NCBI RefSeq assembly: GCF_029873635.1
Contig: NC_080428.1
Location: forward strand, 68,567,601-68,631,600
Direction of reading: 5' to 3'
Source: Malania oleifera
Taxonomy: Eukaryota > Streptophyta > Magnoliopsida > Santalales > Ximeniaceae
DNA length: 64,000 bases
The notes beneath the pieces are model-generated. The model was not told where the DNA came from. It did not search any database and saw nothing but the letters and a program-made list of their open reading frames with translations. The first letter of the stretch is position 1. Each line of letters opens with the position of its first letter. Below, one piece after another: positions 4,793-63,000 of this stretch. Both the position numbers and the translations under genes were made by a program.

Positions 4793-7700
4793 ATGGGGCG
4801 TGGATCCGAGAATTTCCTCGCAGTGGTTACTAAAGGCTTCGATGCTCTTTCTGGGTATGTGGGTTTTGCTGCATTAAAGTCTAAAGGGGATAACATGCTT
4901 TCACATTGTGTGTGTTTTGTTGTTTCTAACCAGGGATCTTGTGTCTGTTCTGCAGGCCTGCAGTTGCTCTTGTTTACCCTATGTAAGTATTGGGTTTTTC
5001 TTTTTTCTCTTTTTTCTAGAAAAAAATTAGGGCAAAAGACAAGGTTTGACAAAAAGAAAGATTGAGGTTTTAAAAATATTACGGAGCCCGTTTGCTAAAA
5101 AGACACAGAGGTCTCCTAAAAAAATTTATCTCTTTTGTAAAGTACAATGGGAGGGGTTTGTATTTTTTGATAAATCTCAAGGGAGGTCCCTGAGATTTTT
5201 AAAACCAGCTAAGGGGAAGTGTCTGTAATTTTTAAAACATCAAGAAAAGTTATTGTCTTTTTGCCAAACCTCATGAAGGTTAGTGTCTTTTGTCCAAAAA
5301 ATTAAGAAACTTTGAGTTTTAGGCAATATGGTTTGAATTGTTGCTCGTGAAGTTTCTGTTGTTTTGGGTGGAAAAATTTTGAAGGATTGAAACTTAAGAG
5401 TGGTTTTGTGGTTTGGGTGTTATTGACAGGTATGCTTCAATCAGGGCTATAGAGAGTAGGTCTTTTGCTGATGGTGAAAAATGGCTTAGATACTGGGTTC
5501 TCTATTCTTTGATCACCCTCTTTAATCTCACTCTTGGCAGAGTCCTAGAAGTGTAAGCTTGCGTTTTGCAGTTTAAAACTCACTCTGGCCATATGATTAA
5601 GGTTTTAGTTGTCAGAGATTGTTCATGTTCTGGGTGAAGTTAGTAGCATTGTAATAGAATGCCCAAACTTAAATCTGATTTCTTTTTTCTAATGGAATGC
5701 CTCAAAGTTGAAACTACCCTTCCTATGTCTATTTCCCCAAATTCCTAGAAATCCATAAACTGTTCTGTGTGGAATTGGAATTATGCCCTCTTCACTTTCA
5801 TTGCTCTTCTTACTCTCAGATTAAGTGATTCACTGATGTATACTGGTTATGAATTATCCTTCTAGTTGCCAACTAAAACCTGAAATCCTAATTGTGTTGG
5901 ATGCTTTCAGAACCTCAATTTTGTAACTGCACTTGCTGGCTGGAACTGTTGTTTAAATGTCATCATGAGCTTGTGTTGAGTTGTACCTCATATACAGAAA
6001 GGGTATGCACTTGGAGCCTGTAATAGGTGGGAGGTTTTTAAGTGATTGACCGATGTATACTAGTTATGAATTATCCTTCTAGTTGCCAACTAAAACTTGA
6101 ATCCCGACTTGTGTTGGATGCTTTCAAAACCCCCAATTTTGTCACATCCTTGTTGGAGCTGTTGTTTAAATGTCATCATAAGCTTGTGTTGAGTTGTGTC
6201 TCATATACAGAAAAGTTATCCACTTAAAGCCTATAATAGGTGGGAGGTTTTGTGACGAAGGTGACAAGGCGTGGTACTTGGAGTTATTGTATTGTTATAT
6301 GAGGGCATTTTAGGGTTTTCACAAGGGGCTATAGCGGCTATACACACACATACTTGTTGCCTAGGGTTGAAACCCTAATACTCTTTTCATTAATGATATA
6401 TTGCATAAGCTTTGTGGATGTAGGCACACTACCAAACCATATATATCTTTGTTTTATTGCTTTCTTCTGTTTTTATTTTGATTTTTTGTGAGTATATGCA
6501 TAACTATAGTGTGTGTTTCACATCAATTGGTATTAGAGCACCAACTTCTTACAAAGGTTTTCTAGGGTTTGCATATTGACTGCAGCATGTATGAGTTAGG
6601 TGAAGATAAGGTTTGACAAGTTCAATGGGAAAGGAAAGTAAAGCCTCGAGCAAATGTGGGTAACTTATATATTGGTTGATTTGGTTCAATAGAAGGTTTA
6701 CATACGAGAGAGGAAACAGAGAAGATTTTGTTGTGTTGGCAATGAAAGAGAAATGACAAAGTGTTTATGGGCAAAATTGGAGAGCATGTATATGGTGAAG
6801 AGTAATACCAACAACGGCTCTTGAAGAAATGTTTCTTCATATGCATGAGGGTGGAGATCTGAATCAATATCTGAATTAGTTTAATCAAATTTTTAGCAAT
6901 TTGCTTAAGGTGGATGTGAGAATTGAAAATGAAGATAGGGTGTTGATGTTGTTATTTTCTCCTCCTTCTTCTTTAGAACCTTTGGTTACAACATGGCTTT
7001 TAGAAAGTCAACCCCTAAGCTATAGTGATCTTGAATGAAGCTAGAAGAGAACTTAACAAGGAGGATCATGAACTAGGAAGCTTTGGTTGCCAAGTTCAAG
7101 GATAGGAGATGTAGATGCAAGGGTAATGGTAGGCAAAAGGGCAGATTTCGTTCTAAATCAAGGGCCAAAATGTTGAATGCTTCAAATGCAAACAAAAGGG
7201 GCACTATGCGTGAGATTGCTCCCTTTGGAAGAAAGAGGAATACAAGAAAAGACTAATCATCAAACTCTGCGAGTGTGGTAATAGATAGTTCAAGATAAAG
7301 ATTTTTGGCTCGTTGCTTCAAGTAACAGTTATTTTCTAGATACTTGGGATATGGATTTGAGCTACTCCTTTCATTACCGTTGATGTGTTAGTAGTTATTA
7401 GGGTGATCATCATTGTTATGTGGCTAAGTCAGTAATGTGAAAGTTAGAATATTTAACAATAATTGTTGGAACATTGTAGAATATTAGACATGATTCAAAA
7501 TTGAAGAAGAATATACTTTCTTTTTGTCACTTAGAGGAGGCTTTACATGGACTTTTAACAACTACAAGTGGTGGAATTCTAAATGTTAGACGGTTTTACG
7601 GTCGCCATAAAGGATAAATCAGTTGATAACAATTTGTATGGTACTATATAGTACAACTGTGGGTAGTGGTAGTAGCTGCTTCATTGGATATCGACATATA

Positions 7701-21679: not shown

Positions 21680-24600
21680 ATGGCTGATTTGCAGAAAACC
21701 GGTGTGCCCGAGAGGGATATCGAGCAGGTTATTTGCTCTGCTGCCCTTACGCTGTGTTTTGGTTTACGAGTACCTATAATTCTATGACATTAAATGATAC
21801 CCTGTTTAGCTTTAATCTTGATGTTAACACGAAGCACATTGTTGGTGTTTTTTTATTAAAACAAAAAAAACAAAAGCAACTAAGTAAGTAGTTTTTCTAG
21901 TTTGCAGAAATTGCTGAGTGATATTCCCATCCTTGAGTACCTGAAGGCTGAAATCCAAATATTTTCTTGTCTCAATGCATTGTTCTCTGAGTAGCTGCCT
22001 TTATATGTCAATACTTGTGTTCTGTGTGAAATATCTACACTCCATTGTATTTTTCTGTAGTTCATGCATGAGACCAGATGATGCTGCATTCTTTCCTAAT
22101 ATTGTTCACATGGTCTCTGAAATAAACCCAATCGTTGCTTTTAATTATTGAGTTCCTTTGTTTCTTAGTTTAATTTAATTTTATTTATTTATTTATTTTT
22201 GCTTCCTTCTTGCATTTTTTTTTGAAATTCCAAACACATCTATTAATTCTCATTGCTATTGTTTCCCCTTCTGTTGCTATATTTTGATGCACCAATGGTG
22301 CTGGACTGGGAAATGTTATGCACTTGATATGACTCGCTGTTGTTAGATTATGCTTATTTATATACGCTGGTAGATCACATCTACAGATCGTCACTGTCCT
22401 TGTTTTATTTTGCAGGCCATTACAGCACTTAAGAAAGGTGCATATTTGCTGAAGTATGGACGCAGGGGGAAGCCCAAGTTCTGCCCATTTCGACTTTCTA
22501 ATGTAGGTTGCCGTGTGCTTAAAGAAAAGAACTTCAACATTTTATTTCTTACCTTCTCAACTGCAATTCCTTCTAATGGTGAAAATCAAACTGTTTCCAT
22601 GATACTTTTTTTCTATATAGGTTGTGTAGTCTACTCATTTTATCATACAAACAGAGGATTTCAAATTAATATTTCTGTTTCCTGTTAAAGAAAAGAAAAT
22701 CCCGAAGCATTAAAATTTGTAGATCACACTAGACAATCAAACTTTGAAATAAGCAAAATTTTAATTTGTTATAACAAACCGCAGGTTGATCTATATAATT
22801 CATTTAGAAGTGAATATTTCTAAAAGTATATTGATATTTAACATTCAAGTACCACGCAACTATCTAATAGAACAATGCTGAAGTGCATGTGTAAACTTCC
22901 ATTCATATCAGGTCCATAGCTCAGTGGTAGGGCATTTTACTTCTGATCATATATTGGATATGACATACAATTAAATAGCACATTATACTAAGTACACTTC
23001 CAAATTTTTAAGTTTTCATGTATGATGTTTTCTGATACCATATAAATATATATATATATTAAAAGGATACACTTTTCTGATAATATGCTATGAATCAACT
23101 TTGTGTATTATCTGTACCAAAGCAAGCACACTAAAAGACTTTATGGGGAGTCATTTTTGTATCTTTTTTTTTTTGGGATAGCAAAATAAGAATATCATTA
23201 ATAGATTAGGAATGTACAACCAGGAGAATAAGACAGATCCTTAGCGAAGTCTGGAAAAATCCAGACAAAAGCAAAGAAAAAACTGAAAACTAAAAGACCA
23301 ATGAAACCAGCAGAAACTAACAATCCAACACATAACACCATTCACACTAAATATCAGGAAAGCTCACCCCCTTAAATTCCCCTGCTCCACACACCAAAGA
23401 GAAGCCAAATAATATATCTTTCTCAAACCAGAAAATGCAAAGACTTCGTCCCTCAGAAAATTTGTGCGCAATGCACTTCAACCACAGCCCTTAAAATACT
23501 GTAAAGAATGCACATTTCCAGAGTGCTGCTCTTTCCTTTTTCCTGCCAAAACCAACAAAAGAAACTGCCAAAAAGTCCTCCACTGCTTTTGAACTCACCC
23601 AACATTTGCCTAGATAACCAAATAACTTATTCCATACCCTCCAAGCATAATCACAATGTATAAAAAGATGTATGCAGATTTTGAACAGTTAAAAACAAAG
23701 AATACATGTTTGGAAAGAGAGGCTTCAAAGGTCTCTTGACTTGCAGCAAGTTATTGGCATTAATTTTATCAAGTGCAACCAACCAAATGAAAGCCTTAAT
23801 TTTTTAGGGGAATTTGGCCTTTCAAATAGATTTATAAAGAGGAAAAATGGAATTAGAGCTAGTGATAAAATCACATATAGATTTGCAAGAATAAACCCCT
23901 GAATTGTCCAAAGACCAAGACTGACTATCCTCATCTAAAGAAAATTGATAATTATTCAGTAAGAAAAGCAAAGAGGATAGCTCTACTAACTCCCTATCAT
24001 CAACAACCTACGAAAATGAAAATCCCAAGAAGGTAGAGGACCATTTGGATCAACAACAAAGAATGAAATGGAACCATCCTACCTTGAACTCAAGCGAAAG
24101 AGGCAAGGAAAATAGGTGGACAAAACTACATCCCCCAACCAAGGATCTTTCCAAAAATGGATATTACTACCCCTTCCCACCAGAAATTTAATATGGGGAA
24201 TGAAAACAAGGTAAATATGAGAGATAGCTTTCCATGGACTCTCTGAAGAACATCTAAATCTCAAATTAATATCCCACCCATTCTCACCTAATCCATACAT
24301 GCTTTTTACAACTTTCTGCCACAAGGAGGAATTCTCTAGCAGGTATCTCCAAAGATATTTAGCTAGAAGGGTTGTGTTCCTAGACACCATATTTCCAATA
24401 CTTAACCCAATCTCCTGGTTAGACCTTCCCACCACCTTCCAACTTACCAAGTGATCCCTAAAGCCCCTTACCCCAGACCACAAGAAGTCCCTCTTTATCT
24501 TCTCAATCTTGCTAGTAACCCCCATCGGAATCTTAAAGATAGAAAGGAAGTATGAAGGGATACTAGAAAGACAAGCCTGGATGAGAGACGAGAGTAATTC

Positions 24601-27600
24601 TACCATCCAGAAAAGAGCACCTTTCCACTTGTCTAGTCTACCTTTCCATAATAGGATCCCAAAAACTAATAGAACTAGGGTTACCACCCCCCGCCCCACC
24701 CCCCAAAAAAAAAGGAACCCCTAGATAGGACAACAACCAATCCAAAACACTACAACCCACCTCTGCAGGCCACTCCCTAACACTTTTGTCAGGCATATTG
24801 ATAGTCACGATACAGATCTTCCCCATAGTAACCTAAGCCTAGAAACCTTCTTGAAAACATAGGGAAGACTCAAAAAATATTCATAGAGGAGGGTCTATGA
24901 TCCTCTAAAAAGAACATAACATCATCAGCAAACTGGAGGTGCGAGACCCTAACCCCCTCCCTGCCCACCTCCAACCCTTTCACTAAACATCTATCAACAG
25001 CCCTATCCACCATCCTACTCAAAATATCAGCCACTAAGACAAGCAAAAAAATGGGGAAAGAGGGTCATCTTGCCTAATCTGTTTTGTAGCCTTAATCCAA
25101 GATTTAGGCTTACCATTCACTAAAATTGAGTGGCTCACATTATGCAAACAGCCTCTAATCCAACACCTCCATTTCTCACCAAACCCCTTTCTCACAAAAA
25201 TCTTATCTAGAACATTCCAATTCACTCTATTATAAGCTTTGTAAAATTCAACTTAAAAATGAGTCCCTTCTTCTTCCCTCTCCGAATGTCCTCAACAACC
25301 TCATCGACAACCAAAATGGCATCCACAAAATTTGCCTACCCCCCAAACGTACTCTAAGCCTTAGAGATAATCCTATCAAGCACTGCACTCAACCTATTAG
25401 CTAAAACTCTAGTGATGATTTTATAAACAATAAAAACCAAGCTAATAGGTGTATAATCTAACATCTTGATGGAATTACTCTTCTTCTTCACCAAAGTTGT
25501 GAAAGTGGAATTGATACTTTTGCTTAAAATCTATTCCTATAAAATCCATTAAAAGCCTTAAGCAAGTCATCTTTAACCACCTCCTAACAATCTTGAAAGA
25601 AAGCCATATTAAATCCGTTAAGCCCTGGGGCTTTATCCCTTTCCATCCCCACACTTCCTCTCCCTCAAAAGGTCTCTCCAATCATGCTACTTCATTTCCA
25701 AACAAAGGGTCCCAATCTAAACCATCAACCATTTGTCTCCTGTCATCCTCCTCAAAACACAAATTAGAATAAAATTCATTGATCTCAAATGCCATTTGAC
25801 TCTAATCGGAGATAGTATCCCCCCTACCCACACCCAATTGCCTAATCAAATTCTTATTCATTTTCCCATTAGCTATCTTATGAAAAAAAAAATCTAGAAT
25901 TATAGTCACCCTCTTTGATCCATTAGAACTTTGTCTTCTGTCTCCAGCTTCTCATTTCCTTCAAAATCACTTCCTCCAATTCATTCTTCGAAGATACCCT
26001 TTTCGTCTATTCCTCCCCAAATAGAATGCCATCATCTTCCTTCCTATCTAACACAACCAACTCTCTTAAAATACTAGCTTTTCTAAACTTAAGATCCCCG
26101 AACACCTCCCTATTCCATACTTTTAACTTCTCTTTAAGCCTCTTTAATTTTTTCATGAATCTAAAACCTTCCCACCCCCTCTCCACATCCTCATTCCAAG
26201 AATTTCTCACCAAGGGCTGGAAGGAATCATGATCCAACCATATATTTTCAAACCTCAAAGGAGCGAGGCCCCAAGAAACCTTCTTCAATTACAACATAAT
26301 AAGAAAGTGGTCAGAAGTAGGCCTAGGTGCAATAAATTGAAAGAGATTAGGGAACTCATCCTCCCACTCCGTGCAAAACACAAATCTGTCAAGCTTGCTT
26401 GCCGCCGCTCTAGCATCTCGCACTGACCATGTAAAGTTTGCATTTTCTAGGGGATGATCTCTCAAACCACACTCCCTAATAAGTGCATCAAAACTATACA
26501 TAGCAGCAGTAACCCTATCACCCCCCCTCTTTCTCCTTTCGAAGAAACCTTATAGCATAATATCACCTCCCATTATCCAATAGGAGCGCAAAAACCAAAC
26601 ACATAATAACAGCCATCCTAAAAAGAACTCCTAAGGGTTGGTCTAGAAGGACCATACACTGATGGCAACCACCATTAGTCTTGGCTTTTCACTTCTACCA
26701 AGATAGAAAAAGACAAAAAGCCTACTAGACTATCCACTTAGCAATAGAGCGAGTATCCCACAGCACCAAAATACCACCCGCTAACCCCAAAGAAGGTAGA
26801 AAAACCCAATCCTTATTGCATCCTTCCCAAATCCCTCTAACAACCCCCCATCGACATTCGCGAGCATAGTCTCCTATATCAAAACCAGATTAGGAGAATA
26901 TCTAAGTAAGACACCTTTAATTAATCCCCTCTTTCTAAGGTTCCCCAAGCCTCTTAACTTTCCAACTAAAAATTTTTACAATTTCACTCGTTTCCCTCCC
27001 TTTCCAATTCCTTTCCCTCCCCCATAATTGATACAAGAGACCAAATTCTTAAGTTCTTAATGACCCTTCTTTTTTTCCCGCTAATACATTCTAGGACTCA
27101 ATGACAGTTTCACCTCAACCCTAATAGGACTAACTAATTTTAGCCCCAAGTCATCAAGCAGTATATTTGGATCTAAAGAGTCTCTCTCATTACCCCCTAG
27201 GCTAACAGCAGAAGTGCTATTCCCAATAGAACCCTCCTTGTGGCATAAAGTGTCAAAAGAAAAAATGCATTGAATAGGAAGGGGATCCATATTTGGATGA
27301 ATTCAGAACAACCATAGGAATAGCTACATCTTCATCAATAGCCTACATCTTCATCAATAGCCCCCTCATTAACAAAAGGAATATCAACAAAACCACCATA
27401 TCGGAATTAGGCTTAGGGACAAGGGACAAAGACCCCGTATTAATAAATTATTTTGTCTGTGTAAAGTTGTGTTTAATAACATTTATACCCTCTTGCATGG
27501 TTTCAAAAAACAATTAAACACACTCCTCCCCATACTTTTTCAAATTTTATGCGTGATCATCACACTTTCCTAAGACTTCCACTCTTTCTTTAGAAAGTTC

Positions 27601-36200: not shown

Positions 36201-39200
36201 GTTTTAAAAGGTGAAGGCAAATAAGGCAAGACATTCTAACCCTTAAGAAGCGAGGCGTAAGCCTTAAGGTGTAGGGGCATAAGCCTTTTGAGAATTTTAT
36301 TTTTAGATAAAAATATGTAAATAAATTACATATATTTAACAAACAAACAAAAATTATAAAAATCACAAATATAATGTTAAAAAAAATCAACTATAATTTG
36401 CAAACTTCTTGTTGGGCATTCAAAAATTGCTAACTTGAATTCATTACATAAATCATGACAAGAGATAGCCTATAACATAACAAAGCTCAAATTACTTTCA
36501 AGATCTAAGATAAAACTCTCAATTATTTTGGGAAGGTTGAGGTTCAAGAGTTTTAGAAATCAACTCATATGGCTATCCTTTTTTATATGCATGGAGTTAG
36601 AATTTTCTACCCATATCTAACTTGAGATTCACACAAAGGTGTGTCTTTTGTACTAATGCATAAGCCTTAGCATGTAATGCGTTAGCCTTTTTGGGATTTG
36701 GCATTTTTTAATGGATCCTCAAGGCTTTTTAGGCCCGCTCTGCCTTGAGGTGAACCTTGATTGAGCCTTTTGAAACATTGGTTAACGCTAACAATCTGGT
36801 GCAGAGTAGGAAATCTTCAAAGGCACTTTCTCCTGATGTGTTTTCTTTATGTCTTGATCCTCAGAAATAGCTTCTCATCTGCTTTTGCATTGCACTTTTT
36901 GTAAGAATATTTGGAATAAGCTTTTTGGTCTCTTGGGAGAGAGTTGTGTTTGTCTGCTGTTGGTGAAAGATTTGTTGGTCATCTCTTTTTCTGATCTTGG
37001 TAGAAGGAAGGAAGCATATGTTTTGTGGAAGTGTGGGGTTTTCTCTATTTTGTGGAGTTTTCGGTTGGAAAGTAATGCTTGAATTTGTACTGGGAAAAAG
37101 CTGAATTCTCTTTTTTATGGGAGAAGACTCATTATTCAGTCTTGCTTGGTTGTGCTGCTGCTGGTTATTTTAGGGGGGAGAGGTTTTCTAATATTTAATT
37201 GGATTGGCTGGCTTCACTAGTCTAATGACTGTTTTTCTTGTTTTTTTTTATTCTATTTTTTCTGAAAAGAAATTTATTTAAGAGGATTTCTTATTCTCCT
37301 CTTTGTATATTCTTTCTATTCTAATGAATTCATCTTCTTTTGTTATTATAAAAAAAAAGAAAAAAATCTTCCTAGACAATATGATAGTCAACTTCAATAT
37401 GTTTTGTTCTCTTATAGAAGCTAGATCGGAGGCAATGTAAATAGTGGATTATCATTTATCACATACCAACTCCACTGGGTGAGTGTGAAAAGAAAGTTCT
37501 ACCAACATGTTGGTAAGCCAAATCAACTCACATGTAGTGTATGCCATGGCCTCACATTCAAACTCAACATTTGATCGAACCACGATAGTTTGTTTCTCAC
37601 TCTTCCAAGACACTAGGTTACTACCAACAAACACATAATACTCAATTGTGAGTCTCTTATTAGAGGGTAACCTATCCCATCTACATTTGTATAACCTTGA
37701 ATGCCAATGACCCCAATTTTGATTCAAGAGGCCTCTCCTATTGCACCAAGTATCGCAAGATACAAATGATACCATCCCAGTGGCTCATTTGGGGAGAATC
37801 TAGGAACTGGCTAACGACTCTTGTTGTGAAAGATATATTTGGTTGTGTGATTGTGAGGTAGTTTAACTTCCCAACAAGTCTCCAATACCGTCTAGGGTCA
37901 GCCAACAAATCACCCATATCTGGTATTAATTTGTTATTCAGGTCCATATTTGCACAAGAGCGGGTTAGATTCCAATGGCCCAGACTCATCTAAAAGATCT
38001 AGAACATACTTCCTTTGTAACAAGACTACCCCTATACGAGATATGGATACTTATATACCCGAGAAATATTTTGCCAGATCCAAATTTGTAGTTTGAAATT
38101 CTTAATGGTTATCTGGTCATTTAGCATTATTAGCATGTGTTAGAGTTATGTTAATAAGGGTATTGTGCTCATTGGTACTGCACTTAACATATTTTATAAT
38201 TAGAGAGAGACCTATCATTGCGTTTGGGTCTTCTATTTTACCCAATTATTCAACTCAGAATAAGATCCAACCTAAACCCTACCACCACCACCAAACCAAA
38301 CCCTAAATCCTACCACCAACAAAACCTACCTAGCCATCCTATGCAAATCAGTCTATATAGGAGGATTAACCACACTCTTACAGCCTAGAAACAAGTCTAG
38401 GGATTGTCAAAAAACGTAGTTGTCACCGAAAAATTCCTTGACGGTCGCTACCCTTCTCAGAACCTTCAAAACCCTTCCTTATTTCACAAAACCAACAATA
38501 TAACCAACAATAGAACCCTCCGATCTGTAGATCTGCAAAACCCCATTGTTATAAACATCGTCATGCGCCCCCATGCATTGGCCAATTGTCGGCACGCATC
38601 GGTGCGTGAGACAAATTCCAACCACATTTTTTTTGCTTTTTTCTTTTGTAGAATGTCTTGATTACTTCCATAGACCATAATATCAAGCTATTGGGCACGC
38701 CTTTTGTTAAAAAATCCAATCTTTTTCAACCATGCACTCATGGTAATCTAGTGTTGTGTTGGGTATAGTTCATTGGTGAGTCTCATGGAACAGTGGTAGT
38801 GCTATGTCCAATTGTTGGTGACTCGTTCGTGGTTGAATCAATGGTTGACTCATTTGTGTTTGTTTTGGTTGGTTCAGAAGTTAACTTGTGGTTGTTTCGG
38901 ATGGTCCAAAAGTTTACTTTTGGAATCCCAAGAGCATTTTGTTCGTTGTGTATTTCTGATTTTCTGCTGTTGTATCGAGGTTGTGTGTGTGTTGGGATAG
39001 CGTCATTAATCCCAAAGTGTGTTTCCTTTGGTAGGCCATTGTTTAGATGAATAATGTACTATAACTGTCTCGAAGGAAGAAGAGTTTTCAAGGTTCCTAC
39101 AGTATCAAGCATCTCAACAACCATCTCATCACATAGCATCTTCTGCTAAGACGAGTAATCCTAGAGTCTATATGTCATCTGGTATCTCTCCTACTAGTCC

Positions 39201-42200
39201 TTGGATTATTGACTATGCTACTAATAACCATATGACATGTGTAACCAACTTCTTTTTTGCCCTTCAGTATTCTAAAAACTTACCTCAAGTTACCTTTGCC
39301 GATGGGTTCACAACTACAGTTAAGGGGATAGGAACAGTAAACCCTACTTCCTCTATCTCTCTTTCTTCTGTCTTGTACATTCCTATGTTCCCTTTCAATC
39401 TTATGTTAGTTAATAAGCCTACAAAGACACTAAATTGTTCTGCAACCTTCTTTCTTGATTCTATGGTTATTTAGGATTTGAAGACAAGGAAAATAATTGG
39501 CACAAGACATGAGGCTTGTGGACTTTACTACTTTGAGTCACTCTCTTCTACCATTGCCTACATAGTCGTTGCTACACCACTTCAAATACATTGTCGCGTT
39601 GGTTATCCGTCCTTGGAAAAATTGAAATAAATAGTTCCTACCTTGAGCTTTGTGTCTAGTCTTGAGTGGAACTCTTGTCAGTTGGGAAAACATCATTGTG
39701 TTCTCTTTGCTTCGCAGGTCAATATATGGGCAAATAGTCCTTTCATGCTTCTTCATTTTGATGTTTGGGGTCCTAGTCATGTCATATTAAAAAAATTGGG
39801 GTTTCAGTACTTGTTACATTTGTTGATGACTACTCCAGGATGACTTGGTTGTGTTTAGTGAAGGATTGTTCTCAATTGTTTAATATCTCTTGTGCCTTCT
39901 ATTCCCAAATAAAGACTCAGTTTGATTTGCCAGTCAGGATACTTCGTAGTGATAATGCTAAGGAGCACTTCAGTACCCGATTCAGTACCTATATGACTAA
40001 TTCTAGTATCACCCATCAATCATCTTGTGCCCACACTCCACAACAAAATGGAGTTGCATAATAGAAAACAGGCATTCTTGAAGTCACTCATACCCTATTG
40101 TATCAGATGAATGTCCCCAAAATTTTTTGAAGCTTTGTTGTGCTCATAACTTGCTCTCTCATGGATAAAATGTCATCCTTTGTCCTTGGTAGTAAAATCC
40201 CATATTCAATTATCTTCTCTAAGACTCCTTTCTTCTCCCTTCCTCCTCTTGTATTTGGTTTTGTGTCTTTTGTCCATCAGTAACTCTAGGAACAGATAAG
40301 TTGGATCCTCGTGCTGTCAAATGTGTTTTTTTGAGGTAGTTGTATACTCAAAAGGGATATCAATGTTATAGCCCTACTTTACGTCGATTCTTTGTCTCTG
40401 TTGATGTCACTTTATTGAGTCTACATCATACTACTTTGATTCCTTGAGTTTTGTTTACCTTAATAAGTCCTTTCCTTTGCCTTGCCTTTCAAATCCTAAC
40501 CTAATAGTTGTGCCTATCCTCTTACATCTTCATCTAGCTTGAGTCCTTCTCGTTGCTTGGATCATCCTAGTTTGCAGGTATACCGCATAGTGACTCGAGG
40601 GAGGAGAGCCTCCTCTAGCTTCCATTTCCATGCTTTTAGTTCCCTCATTAGGTGATCCTATTTCCCAAGATGTTGATCCTACCATTGTTGTTCAAAAAGG
40701 TAAGCTTAGTAGTACCCAACACCTAATCTCTAATTTTGTTTGTTATAATTTCTTTGTCACCATCATATTATTATTTTGATATTTATCTTATGTTGCTCGT
40801 CCAAAATCTATTTTTGAAGTCTTGTCCCATTTAGAGTGGGGGAATGCAATGATTGAAGGGATGCATGTAGTATAGGATAATGATACTTGGGAGTTTGTAC
40901 ATCTACCTTTTGATAAGAGTGTGGTTGTTACTGCTGGGTGTATACCGTGAAGGTCAATCCAGATGGTTTCGTGGCTCAATTGAAGGCCCGAGTTGTTGAT
41001 AAGGTATATACTCAAGTGTATGATTTCGATTATTCGAACACAGTCTCTCTAGTCGCTATACTTGATTCACTATGTTCATTCATCTCCTTAGCCACTAGTT
41101 GTCATTGGCCTTTACGTTAGATGTGAAGAATGTTTTCCTACATGGGATCTTTAGGAGGAGATCTATATGGAGCAATCACTTGGGTTTGTTGCTCAAGGGG
41201 AATTAGGCTTACTGTGTTGGCTTAAGAAATCATTATATGTTTAAAACAATCTTCGAGAGCATGGTTTGGTTGAATTCAGTGTTGTCATACTTGATTTTGG
41301 TCTCCAACAATGTGTAGTAGATCACTCTGTATTTTGTTGTCACGCTCCATTTGGTAGGATTTTGCTTATTGTGTATGTGTACTATGTTGTGATATGTAGA
41401 GATGATGATCAAGGCATCCAAGATCTAAAGCTTTTCCTACATATTAAATTTTAGACCAAGGATTTGGGTCCAATGAAATATTTCTTGAGTATAGAAGTAT
41501 CAAGATCTTGTATAAGAACATCTTGTCACAGGGTAGTGTAATGACAGAGTACAAATTGATCTACTGCACGTCACGATAGGGGTGAGCATAATTCGGGGAA
41601 ACCCGAATTAACCAAATTAACCGACCAATTTCGGTCGGTTCGGTTCGGTCAAGAAATAGGGTCGGTTCGGTTCGGTTACGATTTTACCAATTTTCGGTTA
41701 ATCGGTTATCGGTTTGGTTAATATGAATTATCAATTCGGTTAACCGAATTAACCGAATTGATAATTAATGATTCTAGTGATTCTACTCTTATAGTTTAAT
41801 ACCAAAATATCTTTTTTATTAATAAAATTAATAGATGAGATGCTTAATTAAGCTCGAATTAGTAAAAAAGTTATAATTATATTCTCTTTTTAATAATTAA
41901 TTTCAAATTATTTCGGTTAAATTCGGTTAACCGAATTACCCGAAAAGGTAATTCGGTCGGGTTCGGTTCGGTGAGCTTCCTTTGTTCAGTCGGTTCGGTT
42001 ATCAGAAATCATTAACCGAAAATTTCACTTAATTGGGTTAATTAACCGAATTGGGCCGAACCGACCGTTTGCTCACCCTTACATCACGGAATGCGAAATT
42101 CAAGCACAACTTTATTGAACCTACAAACCAAGCTCTTGGAGTTTGCTTTGGACTATATAAGAATATATTTTAGGCGACACATGTCACACACCAATGTGGA

Positions 42201-45200: not shown

Positions 45201-48200
45201 ATAGTACGACATGATCATTCTGGGGGAGCTGCGCTCAAACAACTAAAAGGTGGGATGTTTGAACAAAAAACCATCATCAAAAACTTTCTAATATGGTTTA
45301 TAGATGGATTTCAACAACACAGGACATGTTCAGGCTAAAAACATTGCCATATGAAGCCTCACTTGCTGGCATATGGAGCTGGCGCTGCCAGCCTTTGGCC
45401 GGCACATACGGGAAGCTTGAACAATGAGATTTTAGGGATAGTCAGATCATGGTGTCTCTGGGTGGCTATGGTGTTGGATTTGCAAGGTCTCAAGGGGTTT
45501 TGATGGTTGTGAACGTGCACCATCTTCCAAGAACTTTGCAGTGACTTCTGTCTTCTAGCAGCTGCCGGGCTGTTTTCAGGTCTATGATGGTGCTAGCAGC
45601 TCTCCTAAGGTAGTAGAAATGCAGAGGATTTAGGGTTTTAGGCGGTTTGCAATGACTGTGATACTTAGGGTTTAGGCATTAGAATTTAGAACCTGGCTGT
45701 AATACAATATTAAGGTGTTGTGTAAATTTCCTAACCACAATGTTATGTCTAACCCTCTGTTTATAATATGTTCCAAGTACATCACAATGACCATAATACC
45801 ATCATTAACTCTTTAGTTACGAACATAGGTAATAATACTAAATGACCAATAACAATTTGTCGTTTGTATTACATGTGAGGTTTTAATTAATATTTTCGGG
45901 ATTCTTAAATAAACAAATGATCTCCTAAATAAATTTTAAAATCTTTAGAATATGGACTATACAGATACAAGAACAAAAAACAATTTTACTAGAGAAGATG
46001 GGTTGCTTAGAAATTTTGACATGTGTATGGTTTTCTATTTACTAATATGGTTTATTATGTTTCTGTATAAGACATTTTAGTAACTTTGCTTATATTACCC
46101 AAGCGTTTGTAACATGAAGGATTCATTCAAAAGGGGATGTATTATATCAATTGGCTGTGGAACTTGATTGCCCTTTTATTGTTTACAACACGTGGAGCTC
46201 CCAACTCAGCTTCTCAGGCTGCTGGTGAAATTCTATTTTGTAGCCTTCAAAATATGCTTCTACCAAATCGGGCCATCATGTTTGAAAGAAGTGTCTGAAG
46301 GAAGTTTATATTTTATATTTAGTCTTGTATTGCTAGAATTATTGCATGTTTTCTTTCTTATTATTTTGATTTTTCTATGTATTTTATGTAATATGATTTA
46401 TACGGTACCAATTTCATATTCATGAGATTTCAAAATATGGTCACATCTTTCAGCCAATATTTCATCGGTACCCTCGGCCTGAAAAGGAATATCAATCATT
46501 TTCTCTTATATACAATGACAGATCCTTGGATTTGGTGAGCACATCTCCTCTATTATTTTGTTTTCATTTCAGCCCTAAATACTTACCTTATTTTCAAATT
46601 TTTATTGTACTAAGCTGTGCAAGAAATCCATTTATCCATAGGCAAATACAGTAAATTAATTTTTCTGTGAACTTAAAAATTGTAACCGTCAACCTACCAA
46701 CAGATATGCAAGGACAAGGATGAAGCTGAAGTTTGGTTTGTTGCTCTTAAGGCTTTAATTTCACCTGGTAACTACCGTAAGTGGAAGAGTGACGGAATAG
46801 GTGAGTGTGTTTCATCAGGTAGTCCACTTGCTCGACATATAAGAAGCTCTCCCTCAATTACATCATCTGTGAGTAGCAATAACTTCATTAATTTTCTGAA
46901 AATTAGACGATCATTATTTTTATTATTATCATCTTATTTGTCAACAAATGCAGGATCCAGGAGAGAATCAACGAGTGCATGTTCCTTCTGATAACATTCC
47001 ACAGAATGGACTTGCAAAGGCATTCTCTGACATTGTATCATATACTGCAGTAGCCAGGAGTCACATTCAAGCTGAATCATCCACCAATTCTCTAAACTCA
47101 ATATTATCTGGGGTTGTAGAGAACTCAAATGACCGAAACTCTGCAGCTGAAACATTTCGTGTTAGTCTATCAAGTGCTGTAAGCTCATCAAGCCATAGTT
47201 CTTTTCATGAAGATTTTGATGCCTTGGGAGATGTTTTCATCTGGGGAGAAGGCATTGGTGATGGTATGCTGGGTGGTGGTATACATAGAGTTGGTAGTTC
47301 ATCTAGTAGCAAGATGGACGCACTTCTGCCTAAGGCATTGGAATCAACAGTGGTGCTTGATGTTCATAATATTGCTTGTGGTGTTAGGCATGCAGTACTA
47401 GTCACCAAACAAGGGGAGATCTTTAGTTGGGGGGAGGAGTCGGGGGGCAGGCTTGGGCATGGTGTAGATGCAGATGTTTCCCACCCAAAGCTCATTAACA
47501 CTCTTTGTGGAATGAACATAGAACTTGTAGCATGTGGGCAGTATCACACTTGTGCTGTTACATTTTCTGGGGATCTTTACACATGGGGTGATGGTGCTCT
47601 CAATCCTGGTCTGCTTGGTAATGGAAGTGAGGTGAGTCATTGGATCCCTAAAAAGGTAACTGGCCATATGGAGGGTATACGCATATCATATGTATCTTGC
47701 GGACCATGGCATACAGCTGCTGTGGCATCTTCAGGCCAGTTGTTCACATTTGGAGATGGAACTTTTGGTGCCCTAGGCCATGGAGATCATAGCAGCACAA
47801 GTATACCACGAGAAGTGGAATCTTTAAGAGGATTGAGAACAATAAAGGTCGCCTGTGGTGTGTGGCACACTGCTGCAGTTGTTGAAATTATCATTGAGTC
47901 TTCTATTTCTGGCCATTCTGGTGGCTCTTCATCTGGAAAACTTTTCACTTGGGGAGATGGAGATAAAGGTCGACTTGGACATGGTGATAAAGAAGACAGA
48001 CTTGTTCCTGAGCGTGTTGCTGCAATGGCTGATGAAAATTTTTGCCAAGTAGCCTGCGGGCATGACCTCACGATTGCCCTTACAACCTCAGGCCGAGTAT
48101 ATTCTATGGGAAGTTCTGCTTATGGGCAGCTGGGAAATCCTACAGTTGATGGAAAAACCCCTGCTTGTGTCGAGGGTAAAATTGTAGACAGTTTTGTTGA

Positions 48201-50018
48201 AGAGATTGCCTGTGGTTCTCATCATGTTGCAGTTCTGACTTCAAAAACTGAGGTCTATACTTGGGGAAAGGGTGCAAATGGCCAATTAGGGCATGGAGAC
48301 AGTGATGACAGAAATTTTCCTACAGTTGTTGATTTCCTAAAAGATAAACAAGTGAAGAGTGTTATATGTGGTTCAAATTTTACTGCTGTTATATGCCTTC
48401 ATAAATGGGTATCAAGTGCTGACCATTCTGTGTGCTCTGGTTGTCATAATCCATTTGGTTTCAGAAGAAAACGTCACAATTGTTACAATTGTGGACTAGT
48501 TTATTGCAAAGCATGTAGCAGTAGGAAATCTCTGAAGGCTTCGTTGGCTCCAAATATGAACAAGCCATATCGTGTATGTGATGATTGTTTTACTAAACTG
48601 AAGAAGGCTGTGGAATTTGGATCTGTGAGGCGAATTCCTAAAGTCAGAAGTGGGAATTTTCTGCTGAAGTCCAGTGAGGTGACAGAAAAAGAGGGTCTGG
48701 GTCCTAGATTACAAGGACAACTGTCCAGACTTTCTTCTGCTGATTCATTGAAGCAGGCTGAAAACAGGCATAGTGGGCATGAAACAAAACTTGAACTAAA
48801 TGATAACCGCATCTTCCCCACTATGACAGGAAATTTCCAGTGGGGGAGCTATAGTTCATTTAAAGCATCTACATCTTTGTCTGGGCCCTCAAAGAAAGTT
48901 GCTTCATCTTCTGTTCCTGGTTCCAGGGTGGCCTCTCGTGGAACATCTCCTGTTTCAGGAAAGTCGAGTCCATGTCAGTCTGCAACACAACCAGCATCTT
49001 TTAGTTTTATAATATCTCCCGAAGTAGTACTTGATGATTCGAAGCATACAAATGACAGTCTTAGCCAAGAAATCATAAATTTAAGGACACAAGTAAGTTT
49101 TTGCTTAGCTATTTTTGTGTATCAATCACATTTATTCGTATGCTGGGTTTTTATCTCTAAAATTTAAAGTCAGGCAGTGGCATCATGTGTGCTGCGTGGT
49201 GCATGGCCCACACAATGTTTGAACAGATTAGGGATTTTATGAAAAAAATATATATATACTATCCAGCAGCATTAAAAGCTTAAAATTATTCAAAATGGTC
49301 TGATACCTTCATCAAAAACTTGTCTCGAAGCAAAGATGATGCAATCAAAACACTTCAGTTATGATGTGATGACTGGATCTTAGTGCTGCCTAAACTATTT
49401 CTTTGCTTTGCTTTTCAAACCCTTAGCCCATTGGAAACCTTATTGCGCTATGGGTCCCAAGAATTTCTCATAAGCCTATTATAAATATTTATGCCTATGA
49501 ATTATCATCTGAAGTCCTGCCCATGAGTCCAAAGAGTTTTCCCATAAGCCATAGGTGATCATCTGAAGTTCTTTAGCAACTGATCTAATAACTCGCCTCC
49601 TGAAATATATTCTTTCAAGAACTGGACATTTTTTTAGAAAGTTGCTGGAAATATTTGTAGGTAGAAGATCTTACTTGCAAATCCCAACACCTCGAAGCTG
49701 AACTAGAAAGAACGTCAACGCAATTGGAGGAGGTTACTACAATAGCAGCAGATGAAGCTGAAAAATGCAAAGCTGCTAAAGAAGTAATCAAGTCTCTAAC
49801 TGTACAGGTTAGATATATTTTATGTTCAAGTCGCTTTGTGTTCAAGATGAATTATGAATTCTTTTTTATGTTTAAGTCACTTCTGGTTCAAGATGAATTA
49901 CATTGCACTTTATTTTCCTTTGAGATTTTATAAATTAGGTATGTACTCAATTTCCAAGTTTAAGTTAGAAGTACAATCTTTTTAATGGCATGACCCAAAG
50001 CTGGAGGCCATGGGGGTT

Positions 50019-57787: not shown

Positions 57788-57941
57788 CTATTTCCGTGAG
57801 TTTTTTCCCATTTTATTATTAAAAATATATAAAATATTAAATAATACTTTGATTGGGAAAAAATTTCCCAAAGTAATGCTTACGTAATCTCGCAGAGATT
57901 TAAAGTGATGGGCCGCTGGAAACACGACGTGTGGCAAGACC

Positions 57942-58046
57942 AAATCTCGTAGCTTGGAGCTGCGAGATTTAAAGAGAATAGACAATGGGAAGTTAACATG
58001 TGGCGCATAAGGGGAGAAAATCTCGCAGCTTGGAGCTGCGAGATTT
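57942..58046. repeat. Left array of short palindromes in the MULE terminal repeat
   Basis: Two palindromes of 29 bp, at 57942-57970 and 58018-58046, each have arms AAATCTCG(C/T)AGCT and AGCTGCGAGATTT around a TGG loop. A collapsed one lies at 57886-57900. They repeat every 76 bp and are mirrored by the right array. Confidence 0.85.
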
Positions 58047-58246
58047 AAACAGAGAAGCCTCCCACTGATTGAGTTGCAGGGAACTTAACTGGATGCTGCC
58101 GGCAAGGATGGTGAGCGACGACGGCGGCAAGGGGTGTTGGCGACGGTGGCAGCGAGGACTAGTTCTGCTTCAAGAGGTGTTGCAGGGAGGTTGGGCGAGT
58201 GGAGCAGAGAGCGGCAGCGGCGGCTACTGTTGCTACGAGTTGCCGA

Positions 58247-58597
58247 GAGGTTGAGGCCGGGCTCGGCAATGAGGTGGCCGAAGAGGGTGAGGTTGAAGTT
58301 GCCGGGGACGGAGAAGACGTCGTTGACGCCGATTTCGACGAGGTGGCGGCCGAGGGTGGCATCGGAGGACGCAACGACGGAGGTTGAGGCCGACGAGGTT
58401 GAGGCCGGGCTCGGCGATGAGGTGGCCGAAGAGGGTGAGGTTGAAGATGCCGGGGACGGAGAAGACGTCGTTGACGCCGATTTCGACGAGGTCGCGGCCG
58501 AGGGTGGCATCGGAGGACGCAACGACGGAGGGCGACGGAGGACGCAACGACCGACGGTGGGATTGCAGGCGTCCAGCACGCAGATCTTCGAGTCCAT
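58247..58597 (-). pseudogene. PDC: Captured pyruvate decarboxylase N-terminal pieces, duplicated
   Basis: On the minus strand, 58597-58550 reads MDSKICVLDACNPTVG, like the N-terminus of plant pyruvate decarboxylase. The next block, 58526-58389, reads VASSDATLGRDLVEIG then DVFSVPGIFNLTLFGHLI and AEPGLNLVG. A second copy at 58378-58247 reads the same with small differences (GRHL, VPGNF), offset by 148 bp. In the family this segment is the start of the thiamine-diphosphate-binding N-domain. Its catalytic glutamate and the rest of the enzyme are absent, and the two blocks are in different frames. A 180-codon open frame (58627-58085) crosses the region but reads the first block out of frame, so no functional enzyme can result. 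Confidence 0.8.
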
Positions 58598-58630
58598 GGC
58601 CGAGAAGGAATTTTTTCCACGCCTCACCCT

Positions 58631-58802
58631 AAATCTCGCAGCTCGGAGCTGCGAGATTTGCTCCCTGCCACGTGTCAGCTTTTCAGTGGCTATTTTCTTT
58701 AAATCTCGTAGCTCTAAGCTGCGAGATTTGATCTTCTACTTGCCACACATCATCTTCTTAGTGGTCATCAATTTAAATCTCGCAGCATCAAGCTGCGAGA
58801 TT
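58631..58802. repeat. Right array of short palindromes in the MULE terminal repeat
   Basis: Three palindromes at 58631-58659, 58701-58729 and 58775-58802 have arms AAATCTCG(C/T)AGC and GCTGCGAGATT. They repeat every 70-74 bp, with spacers containing 'gccacgtgtcagc' or 'gccacacatcatc'. Confidence 0.85.
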
Positions 58803-58900
58803 ACGTAAGCATTAGTTTGGGAATTTTTTTCCCATTCAGAGTATTATTTAATATTTTATTTATCGTTAATAATAAAATGGGAAAAAACTCCTATTTCCGT

Positions 58901-59457: not shown

Positions 59458-61278
59458 CTAGTTAACCAGGCCCCGAACTGTACTCAGATCTTCCCAACGT
59501 TCACTATCCATCTCAATTATGCTACATCCAGGTTCCTTCGACATTTTGTCCTTCCTGTTTTCAATTGACCAGTGGTCAACCTCCATTGTCTTCTCTTCCT
59601 TCATCTCCTGCATTTTTGTATGATCAGGCAGCCTTCCTGCAATGGCATAAGTGCTAGTAAGAAGTAATGAATCAGTGGGGTGTTCATTGTGGGTTCCTAT
59701 CAACTCTCTCCTCACACGTTCCCCCAAATCAACATTTCCATGCACCCTGCAAGCAGCGAGTAATGCACGCCATGCTGTAGTGTCACTCTTGGTGGGTAAT
59801 CTTTTAATTAGTTTATATGCTTCCTCTATCAACCCTGCACGACCCAAGAGATCGATCATGCATCCGTAGTGTTCAACCCCAGGTGAAAATCCATATTTTT
59901 TAACCATCCTCTCATAACAGTTCATTGCCTCAACGACCAACCCTCCATGGCTACATGCATTCAGAACTGTCAAGAAAGTGATTTCATTGGGTATAAACCC
60001 CTCCTCCTCCATCTTGTAGAAGAGTTCAACGGCATTTTTCGCATGCCCATGAACCCCATAGCCTGAAATCATGGCAGTCCAAGATTTCACATCTTTGGTA
60101 CCCATCTTGTAGAAAACTTCAATGGCCTCATCGAGAAACCCACATTTACAGTACATATCTACCAAAGCTGTGCCAAGAACTGCATCCATTACCACTTGTT
60201 CCTCCTCCACATAGTCATAGATGCATTGGCCTACACTCGCGGCCCCTGAGGCTGCACAAGATGAAAGCAATTGTGCCAAGGTAGAGGAATTTGGTTTCAC
60301 TTGTTCGATTTTCATAAGCCATAGTAAAGCTAATGATTCTTCCAGCTGACCACTTTTGGCATACCCATCTATCAAACAATTCCACGAAATAACATCCCTC
60401 CTAGGGGCTCCGTCGAAAACTCTACGCCCCAAATCAACACGCCGAGTCTTTGCATACATACTAATCAAAGCAGTAGACAGGCTCACATCAGAACAAAAGC
60501 CAATCTTGATGCAGTATCCATGAATGCATTCCCCTCCAGTATGATTTCCTGATTCACCAGCAGCAGAAAGAACAGTCAAAATTGTGGATATGCCAAATTC
60601 CAAACCACTTCTACCCATTTGCCTGAACAACTCAATAACCATAGTAGGCTGAGCCACATGAAGATATCCGCCCAACAAAGTGCTCCATGAAACCAAATCT
60701 ATTTTCTGAGGACATTCATCAAACAACTGATGGGCATCTCTAATGCTGCCGCACAAACAATAAAGGCTTAAGAGGGTGTTCATGACATTGATGAACAGTC
60801 CATGCCCAGATCTTAGAATTAACCCATGAATCCCTCGGCCGCAATGTATGACCAACAGACGAGCACAAGCTTTGAGGGTGGTAATGAAGCAGAACTGGTC
60901 AAGCACAATTCCCAAAGTCCTAACATGATTGAAGAGAGAGAGAGCTTGTTTTGGGTCTTCACTACCTGAAAAGCCTCTGAGCATGGTAGTGAACATAAAG
61001 AGATTTGGGTCTTGAACATGTTTGAAGATTGATGCTGCATAGTCTATGTCTACAATGGCAGATGCAAGAAGCTTGCTCAATGTGAAAGGAATGCGGTCAA
61101 GGCCTGTCTTGACCATGAGGCCATGGATTTGAGAGATTTCACGGGCATCCGCGCAAGAGTTCAACAGAGAAATAAGCTTTTGATCTTGTGAAAATGTAGA
61201 GTAGTGGTGTTTTGGAAAGAGCTCTGTGGGTCTGATTTTGAGTTTTTGCCTCAAGCATGAAATTCGGGTCTGGATCAT
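59458..61278 (-). CDS. PLS-class pentatricopeptide repeat protein with E-type C-terminus
   Basis: A single uninterrupted frame of 606 residues plus stop, intronless as is usual for plant PPR genes. The N-terminus (MIQTRISCLRQKLKIRPTEL) is basic and poor in acid residues, which fits a mitochondrial or plastid targeting peptide. Repeats run from about 40 to 490, with typical units such as DVISWNCLIDGYAKSGQLEE, DVKSWTAMISGYGVHGHAKN and VEHYGCMIDLLGRAGLIEEA. They are followed by an E-type region (TTAWRALLAACRVHGNVDLG, then KEPGCSIIEMD). There is no DYW deaminase domain. Family members bind organellar RNA, and E-class members help C-to-U editing with a partner deaminase. About 15 extra residues (around EVDHWSIENRKDK) interrupt the E motif. 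The arrangement resembles the Arabidopsis At1g26900 type, but the orthologue is not certain. Confidence 0.93.
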   Translation of the reverse strand: MIQTRISCLRQKLKIRPTELFPKHHYSTFSQDQKLISLLNSCADAREISQIHGLMVKTGLDRIPFTLSKLLASAIVDIDYAASIFKHVQDPNLFMFTTMLRGFSGSEDPKQALSLFNHVRTLGIVLDQFCFITTLKACARLLVIHCGRGIHGLILRSGHGLFINVMNTLLSLYCLCGSIRDAHQLFDECPQKIDLVSWSTLLGGYLHVAQPTMVIELFRQMGRSGLEFGISTILTVLSAAGESGNHTGGECIHGYCIKIGFCSDVSLSTALISMYAKTRRVDLGRRVFDGAPRRDVISWNCLIDGYAKSGQLEESLALLWLMKIEQVKPNSSTLAQLLSSCAASGAASVGQCIYDYVEEEQVVMDAVLGTALVDMYCKCGFLDEAIEVFYKMGTKDVKSWTAMISGYGVHGHAKNAVELFYKMEEEGFIPNEITFLTVLNACSHGGLVVEAMNCYERMVKKYGFSPGVEHYGCMIDLLGRAGLIEEAYKLIKRLPTKSDTTAWRALLAACRVHGNVDLGERVRRELIGTHNEHPTDSLLLTSTYAIAGRLPDHTKMQEMKEEKTMEVDHWSIENRKDKMSKEPGCSIIEMDSERWEDLSTVRGLVN

Positions 61279-63000
61279 CAGCTAGAAAAGAACGTTTCGC
61301 AGCAATTCGGAGCTATTGGCATGAGCCTTCACTCTTCAGTCATTGTATCCTAAAGACTTGATCTTTTGATTCAAAGCAAAAAGACTACAATAAACAATCG
61401 AAGAACTCCCTTGAAAAAAGGTTACATGTAATGTGATGAGGCGTAACAAGAGAGACCAATTTCGGTGATATCAAATCTTGTTTTAGCTCAATTATGAATT
61501 GAGACTTGTAGATCACAAAAATATGGATATGACTAATTTAAGGTTCAAGAAAATGTTTGAATTCTTCTTGTCCAACTTCAACAAGGAAACATATGTAGCA
61601 AAAGACAAAAAAAAAACACTTCAAATAAGGATACATACTTGATCGAAAAGAAGCTGAATACAGTTCTCAAAGTCCTCAAGGAAATGAAAATTAAGACGGG
61701 AAAGTATTAGAAAGGTAATTTCCAAGAGTAACTTCACTTTTAAAAGGAATTCAAGCCTAAATATACTATTTAAGACTCAAATTATGAGATCCAAAATTGT
61801 TGAATAACAAATGTTATCACGCATTTACTACTAAAAAATTATCTTTTTTATCTTTTATTTTCCTTAAAAAAAAAAAAAAACACTAAACTTTGGGTTTGAA
61901 GTGATTTTGAACCATCACTTATCACTCTACTCTATTTTGAAAACTAGAGAAAAATCAATTTGATTTTAAAAAGATAATCCACAAACAGGAAAAAAAAATT
62001 AGCTAGTTGTGTATAATGAATGTATCTTAATAAATTAACACTATTAACTTTATTCTTACAAGTCAAGCTTATTAGGATATTATGTTTGCTTATAACCATT
62101 TGTCTTGTGTATATGACATGGGTAAGTATCATAGAAATAGTAGTGTAAATTTATTCCTCAAGTAGGATAATAATGTCGGAGTGTAAAATAAGAGTATGAC
62201 TCCCCTGTCAATTTAATGTTTCCTAATACCAAGGTTAGCATAAAAAGCTCTCTAGGAGAGATTAAATGTTCAACAATCATAGTAAAATTCACTAGTTATT
62301 ATAACACTCATTGCCTACAAAAAAATGTGAACAATAAATTACATTGCTTTTTAGTTTACCATGTGACCCACCTTTATATATATATGCTTACTCACTGCTA
62401 ACGCTTAGCATAGCATTATATTTGATCGTGATAATCATATCATGTTGTGAAATCACAAAATGTTTTGAGTTAACTAGTTAAGCTAGAGTATTATAATTAG
62501 TGTCCCTCAATCCTTCACAAAGTGTGAAGTGTTTGGCCATTACACTGAACAATTTAAGGAACAGCACATATTTGGATTGCTTTCTCAGAAGAACAATTTA
62601 ATTTGGAGAAAAATGATATGTGAAAAGTATTTCATTTATACCCATGTAATAAAAGAAAGAATTAATTCTTTTCCAGGTCTATTACATGCATTTTCAGCAT
62701 CCAAATTGAGATACCAATAAGCAAAAGGTCATGTTTTAACGGGAAATAAAAAAGGAGGGGGTTTTGAAATTGAATTTCAAACGATGTGTGATAATAATAA
62801 TTATATTTCTTTGGGCCTAATTCTGTTGTTTAAAGTCTCCATCATTCTCGACTAACCAATCAAGATCGAGATCATGCCTAAGGAGAAAGGAAAGAAAGAA
62901 GATCCAATCTAACCCAAATCCGTCTCAAGTCAATTTGGCGGTAACAATTGCTAGAATAATATTTATCTAACCTCTCTCTCTCTCCCTCTCCCTCTCTCAA
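61279..63000. other. Intergenic AT-rich stretch upstream of the PPR gene
   Basis: It holds the promoter of the PPR gene near its left edge. No TATA box can be assigned with confidence. A-rich runs lie at 61607-61617 and 61866-61880. A CT tract lies at 62973-62998. No ORF with a recognisable product was found. Confidence 0.5.

Follow-up and report, generated by a model that had tools for sequence, protein, structure and literature searches.

The segment at positions 57798–58890 of the window (the whole stretch of 64,000 nucleotides analysed here) is a Pack-MULE, a Mutator-like element that does not transpose autonomously, and has pieces of a host pyruvate decarboxylase (PDC) gene inside it. 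One joint account very probably covers its origin: a family of Pack-MULEs mobilised in trans would have given rise to a hybrid of two parent elements, in which the PDC fragment was later duplicated and has been carried along as passive cargo.

A Pack-MULE with mapped ends, cargo and target site

The element is flanked by an RCC1-like repeat frame on the plus strand (46900–49167) and a PPR-type frame on the minus strand (59458–61281), both names having been assigned by eye. Its features are listed in Table 1. The 10-bp flanking repeat noticed in the original prediction, CTATTTCCGT, is perfect, and beyond both flanks the window contains no further plus-strand site of this sequence and one minus-strand site (33758). 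The 98-nt outer inverted ends (57798–57895 and 58793–58890) were also correctly recognized, with a complementarity of 93%, but they form only the outermost gap-free block of much longer arms, whose homology extends inward to approximately 58053 and from approximately 58629. Over 243 aligned columns, the two arms of the window element are 86.8% identical. Each arm carries three palindromes with the pattern AAATCTCGCAGCT...AGCTGCGAGATTT, 29 bp long when whole and spaced 70–76 bp apart where whole; the gap-free inverted block ends at 98 bp because the outermost left palindrome has lost 12 nt. Three palindromes per arm (57888–58046 and 58631–58802 in the window) also recur in other copies, and they are candidate transposase binding sites or hairpins.

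Table 1 Features of the Pack-MULE, in window coordinates
Feature	Position	Strand	Remarks
Target site duplication, left copy	57788..57797		CTATTTCCGT; perfect 10 bp
Left terminal inverted arm	57798..58053	+	~256 bp; groups with LTR-carrying MULE lineage
Outermost left-arm palindrome	57888..57903		minus 12 nt relative to right arm; read from sequence
Left-arm palindrome	57942..57970		29 bp
Left-arm palindrome	58018..58046		29 bp
LTR-MULE fragments (58100–58187, 58201–58250)	58100..58250	+	L050 95.5% and 92%; L056 81% and 84%
PDC exon 1 fragment, copy A	58242..58383	-	donor L020:5229-5383, 12-bp in-frame deletion; 88.4% over 155 bp
PDC exon 1 fragment, copy B	58389..58603	-	donor L020:5120-5383, 12-bp deletion and further ~40-55 bp deletion
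Right terminal inverted arm	58629..58890	-	~262 bp; groups with PDC-carrying MULE lineage
Right-arm palindromes	at 58631, 58701, 58775		inside right terminal inverted arm
Target site duplication, right copy	58891..58900		CTATTTCCGT; perfect 10 bp

Passages of PMC3310237 give a target site duplication of 9–11 bp and terminal inverted repeats of 100–500 bp as the ranges for MULEs, and the window element agrees with them in the size of its target duplication and in its long inverted ends. A Pfam scan of eight open reading frames (ORFs; 61–224 codons) detected no transposase inside the element, returning only weak TPP_enzyme_N matches in two of them. As expected of a Pack-MULE, it holds a fragment of a host gene, the parental gene (L020) lies elsewhere with none of the family ends in its 9.9 kb, and there is no internal transposase. 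The Pack-MULE reading first proposed from the sequence alone is thus supported by the ends, by the target duplications and by the match to the host gene, and the core (58054–58628) is as GC-rich as had been claimed (63.5%, compared to 37.5% and 37.8% in the arms). A PDC gene or pseudogene in place was considered and rejected, as the core holds exon 1 pieces only and is bounded by transposon ends. Elsewhere in the window, frames at 24079–24720 (-), 37452–37784 (-) and 39055–39474 (+) resemble, by eye, remains of non-LTR reverse transcriptase and of Copia-type polyprotein.

Family copies and their possible link to MULE transposases

Searching the window's own genome (G000; 1.49 Gb, 510 contigs) with the element recovered a multi-copy family with the same ends: at least 191 matches with 40 of 1985 candidates scored, all copy counts from this search being lower bounds. 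Allowing three bases of slack at each end, we found that 26 of the 33 fetched copies with both ends are flanked by perfect target duplications of 10 bp or more, and two more by a duplication with one mismatch; a convincing one is absent from the other five (L024, L025, L030, L043, L044). For this set of 33, L018 was treated as a repeat of L024, one pairing of ends in L026 was discarded as spurious, and the single-ended L028, L029, L031 and L045 as well as L057 and L058, which were fetched later, were left out. The target repeats differ from copy to copy, which speaks against the 10-mers belonging to a larger duplicated block, an outcome named in the original prediction as one that would overturn it.

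Two members deserve separate mention. One (L019:7791-9813; G000:C12:52330000-52339900) looks young, with arms 98.6% identical, a perfect target duplication and other cargo, and it adjoins a different PDC gene, lying ~0.65 kb upstream of the gene start. The second (L030:4828-8191; G000:C6:45762500-45772400) is an AT-rich family element of 3.4 kb (31% GC) without PDC or LTR cargo. A Pfam scan of one of six frames from each of the two yielded no domain.

A search of the genome with PF10551 located at least 150 MULE-domain loci (150 of 1008 candidates scored). Three long relatives of the element, L028, L029 and L031, have ~4 kb in common together with the family right end, and a companion ORF taken from L028 is present in at least 150 places (150 of 1291 scored). 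This ORF lies 3′ of 39 of the 150 PF10551 loci, on the same strand and within 8 kb (32 of the 39 at a distance of 3.1–3.3 kb); it was found upstream or on the opposite strand within 8 kb of none of them. Family ends, taken from 40 scored places, occur in the proper orientation downstream of the MULE domain at two of the 150 PF10551 loci (8.3 and 6.2 kb; 0.08 expected by chance) and downstream of the companion ORF at four of its 150 places (0.08 expected by chance), although the four are not independent, the ORF having been chosen for its position next to a family end, and the two and the 39 are the fairer counts. No family left end was found in C3:3540500-3543500, no complete two-ended autonomous element was read, and Pfam recognized no domain either in the companion ORF or at the start of the transposase frame near C3:3542563. 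Judging from ends and target duplications, membership among the MULEs is well supported, and related ends beside MULE transposase genes suggest that transposase may be supplied in trans.

Capture, trimming and duplication of PDC

The PDC-like peptides described on the minus strand are present. At the protein level, their two matches to TPP_enzyme_N are weak and do not reach the curated cut-off (Pfam E 0.0054 and 0.013); 11 PDB sequences are matched with E 0.0056–0.087, seven bearing the name pyruvate decarboxylase and the other four being related keto-acid decarboxylases. The identity of the peptides is settled by their similarity to a host PDC gene in nucleotide sequence (Table 1). Using PF00205, we obtained 11 matches in the genome (13 of 13 candidates scored), two of them inside the family elements L024 and L025. 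When four PDC genes (L019, L020, L021, L022) were compared as donors, L020 on contig C11 came top for 28 of 28 PDC-bearing copies, and none of the remaining PF00205 loci that were fetched matched the core. L020 is the best match for the donor that the original prediction proposed to look for, and a host genome devoid of any PDC gene with nucleotide similarity to the core, which would have spoken against capture, is not what we found. L020 starts with MDSKICALDACNPTNGDVGSPPNG; its 9.9 kb revealed no ends of the family.

The fullest versions of the cargo are those of L024 and L027, which retain L020:5115-6265 and 5117-6261 at 93.6% and 93.8% identity, comprising exon 1 with 9–11 bp in front of the ATG, a stretch read as an intron and a portion of the exon that encodes PF00205 (L020:6104-6460 in the donor). 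The ~1.15 kb retained with its intron in these two copies indicates that PDC was captured as genomic DNA, which was then trimmed stepwise to exon 1 and subsequently duplicated. L025, L032 and L045 are internal deletion derivatives, and the 23 other PDC-bearing copies retain L020:5115-5395 or less. The 12-bp in-frame deletion is shared by 26 of the 28 PDC-bearing copies; L024 keeps those bases. In L035 (G000:C3:57823800-57828300), the same 12 bp are absent and an insert of ~392 bp is located exactly there (element ~704–1095).

The internal duplication of about 148 bp proposed earlier takes the form of a direct repeat of 137 nt, 98% identical and with a spacing of 148. Including the window element, eight copies contain two units, and the donor limits of copy A are 5229-5383 in all eight. 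Copy B, whose PDC ATG is located at 58597–58595 in the window, is nearly whole in L006, which looks like the least derived two-unit copy. Because a unit tree calculated without L035 had 0 starred branches of 36 and did not resolve a single duplication, the case for one duplication event rests on the shared unit boundaries.

A second cargo related to a putative LTR

Part of the core matches L050, a family member without PDC (Table 1). The interior of PDC-less members in turn matches some paired places in the genome, ~10.2–10.5 kb apart and in the same orientation. In one pair, L053 and L054 share 99.9% identity across 1093 bp, and their match to L050:539-825 (positions in the L050 element) is at 89.5%. 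In another, L056 matches L050:322-827 at 80.9% and L055 matches L050:418-827 at 87.6%; both matches are without the arms, and the two loci, although read as an LTR pair, are only 87–93% alike, in two blocks. Among the paired places, one on C6 turned out to hold an ordinary MULE of the family (L057). We read the paired repeats L053/L054 and L055/L056 as the LTRs of an LTR retrotransposon, and ~140 bp of the window core as coming from this putative LTR repeat instead of PDC. PDC capture as originally predicted is upheld in substance and amended in two respects, namely that the core has this second putative source and that the original capture, at ~1.15 kb with an intron, was far longer than what the window element retains. 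Our literature search found no paper pairing a Pack-MULE with pyruvate decarboxylase, and none joining the terms Pack-MULE, retrotransposon LTR, chimeric and capture; a single paper that turned up for PDC in combination with Mutator-like transposable elements was unrelated, and PMC8903248 contributed no decisive point.

Conflicting ancestries of the two arms

LTR-MULE sequence is found in 23 of the 28 PDC-bearing copies and in none of the five with the long capture. The arms divide in a corresponding manner: in the two-unit class, left arms have a mean distance of 0.105 to LTR-only copies and 0.183 to long-PDC copies, and right arms have mean distances of 0.189 and 0.116, respectively. We compared arm trees of 35 copies, 22 of them hybrids (L038 was omitted for its aberrant left arm). 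Hybrid and LTR-only copies fall on one side of a branch in the left-arm tree (support 97/96.9). AU tests, whose p values are optimistic because the arm groups were named after the distances had been seen, rejected a grouping of hybrids with long-PDC copies for the left arm (p 0.005) and a grouping of hybrids with LTR-only copies for the right arm (p 0.0007); a right-arm grouping of hybrids with long-PDC copies is absent from the best tree and was not rejected (p 0.215). In addition, L035, L036, L037 and L040–L042 contain sequence resembling the inner arm of the LTR-MULE (L050:902-960) that is immediately adjacent to PDC at donor position 5395, and this junction is followed by the right half of a PDC-MULE.

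Taken together, it is probable that two MULEs with different cargo recombined into a hybrid, bounded on the left by an end of one parent and on the right by an end of its partner, and that this hybrid was still transposable and accounts for 23 of the 28 PDC-bearing copies fetched. An alternative without any hybrid would have the arms differ through unequal divergence or gene conversion in one lineage, and would treat the LTR piece as a later capture or as one that the long-PDC copies have lost. Gene conversion between repeats is plausible, and an arm-to-arm identity of 83–91% in 33 of 34 elements of any class indicates that arms diverge in the parents too, but we consider this alternative unlikely, given that the arm conflict in the 22 hybrid copies is concordant with the cargo split and that inner-arm sequence of the LTR-MULE joins PDC directly in the six copies named above.

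If two parents were involved, the history probably ran as follows. The window element belongs to a multi-copy family, for which a MULE transposase would act in trans. A PDC-carrying MULE with ~1.15 kb of genomic PDC would have contributed the right end and PDC exon 1, and an LTR-carrying MULE the left end and the LTR piece. The parents may have been joined by recombination, gap repair or template switching, a route that we infer. The hybrid would have kept transposing and amplified; slippage or template switching would then have duplicated part of PDC exon 1 in tandem, with a 148-bp period, in one branch of the hybrids. If this is true, end-swapping is a route by which Pack-MULEs assemble chimeric genes from several sources.

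Coding potential of the PDC cargo

The chimeric open frame of 180 codons announced in the original prediction exists; it starts at a GTG and comprises 170 codons when counted from the PDC ATG. Its chimeric content is more limited than was thought: a shift of 148 bp is not divisible by three, so that only one PDC block is read correctly in the 180 codons, while the other is displaced by one position and is in frame within a separate ORF of 104 codons. Nor is the frame generally conserved in sister copies, as PDC-ATG frames in the two-unit copies measure 170 (window), 58, 137, 121, 169 and 136 codons and L007 and L008 have no such start. Changes among the units, counted per copy against the majority letter with shared changes counted repeatedly and L035 omitted, amount to 113 nonsynonymous (one a stop) and 54 synonymous. 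The N/S ratio per site is 0.78 without correction for transition bias; with this bias weighted in, the nonsynonymous:synonymous ratio of 2.09 compares to 2.22 expected without selection, and we see no clear signal of selection on the frame among units. The best reading is that the PDC piece is passive, decaying cargo; a functional protein is not indicated.

It is improbable that the cargo acts via RNA, a reading in which transcription through the arms, or antisense to PDC, would lead to small RNAs directed at the parental gene. The core does closely resemble a host PDC gene, the arms are long inverted repeats, and small RNAs from Pack-MULEs are mentioned in a section of PMC8277862, but the sequence contains nothing that requires RNA action. 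A domesticated chimeric gene encoding a selected protein from the PDC-derived frame is highly improbable, since the open 180-codon frame, the in-frame 12-bp deletion, the few frameshifts among units, the similar frame of 169 codons kept in L005 and the uncorrected N/S ratio are set against a transition-weighted ratio close to that expected without selection, a PDC-ATG frame that varies in length in the seven other two-unit copies or lacks its start, and a duplicated PDC block that is out of frame.

Comparison with known systems

As passive cargo between Mutator-like ends, the PDC pieces invite comparison with Pack-MULEs at large, which were reportedly described by Jiang et al. in 2004. The window element shares with them Mutator-like ends, a target duplication of the right size, a fragment of a host gene, GC-rich cargo, the presence of several copies and the lack of an internal transposase; it differs in its duplicated PDC exon 1 piece accompanied by an LTR scrap, and in ends that apparently stem from two parents. 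Pack-MULEs with gene fragments, GC-rich cargo and 9–11-bp duplications are already known, as stated in portions of PMC3310237, PMC8277862 and PMC4858842. How they acquire and combine fragments is presented as unsettled in parts of PMC3310237 and PMC8277862, with gap filling, template switching and recombination under consideration.

The tomato PM-ZIBP elements, according to excerpts of PMC3310237, are likewise a multi-copy Pack-MULE family of ~1–1.4 kb with repeated arm sequence, and inter-element recombination is discussed for them, its role in building MULEs with extra ends being left open in that text. There, whole TIRs are doubled (tandem TIRs), whereas here each arm contains three palindromes and the ancestries of the arms conflict. 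FoSTeST, a model of animal Pack-TIR formation, resembles our case in that template switching is proposed for multicopy chimeric TIR elements in the relevant passages of PMC8277862; the window element is a plant MULE, and the likeness is a tentative one. The conflicting arm ancestry makes inter-element recombination testable, and the family is a good test case. In kind, the element is an ordinary Pack-MULE with an unusually legible history, one genome preserving the series from a long capture with an intron through the 12-bp deletion, the trimming to exon 1, the fusion with an LTR-carrying element and the tandem duplication to further deletion.
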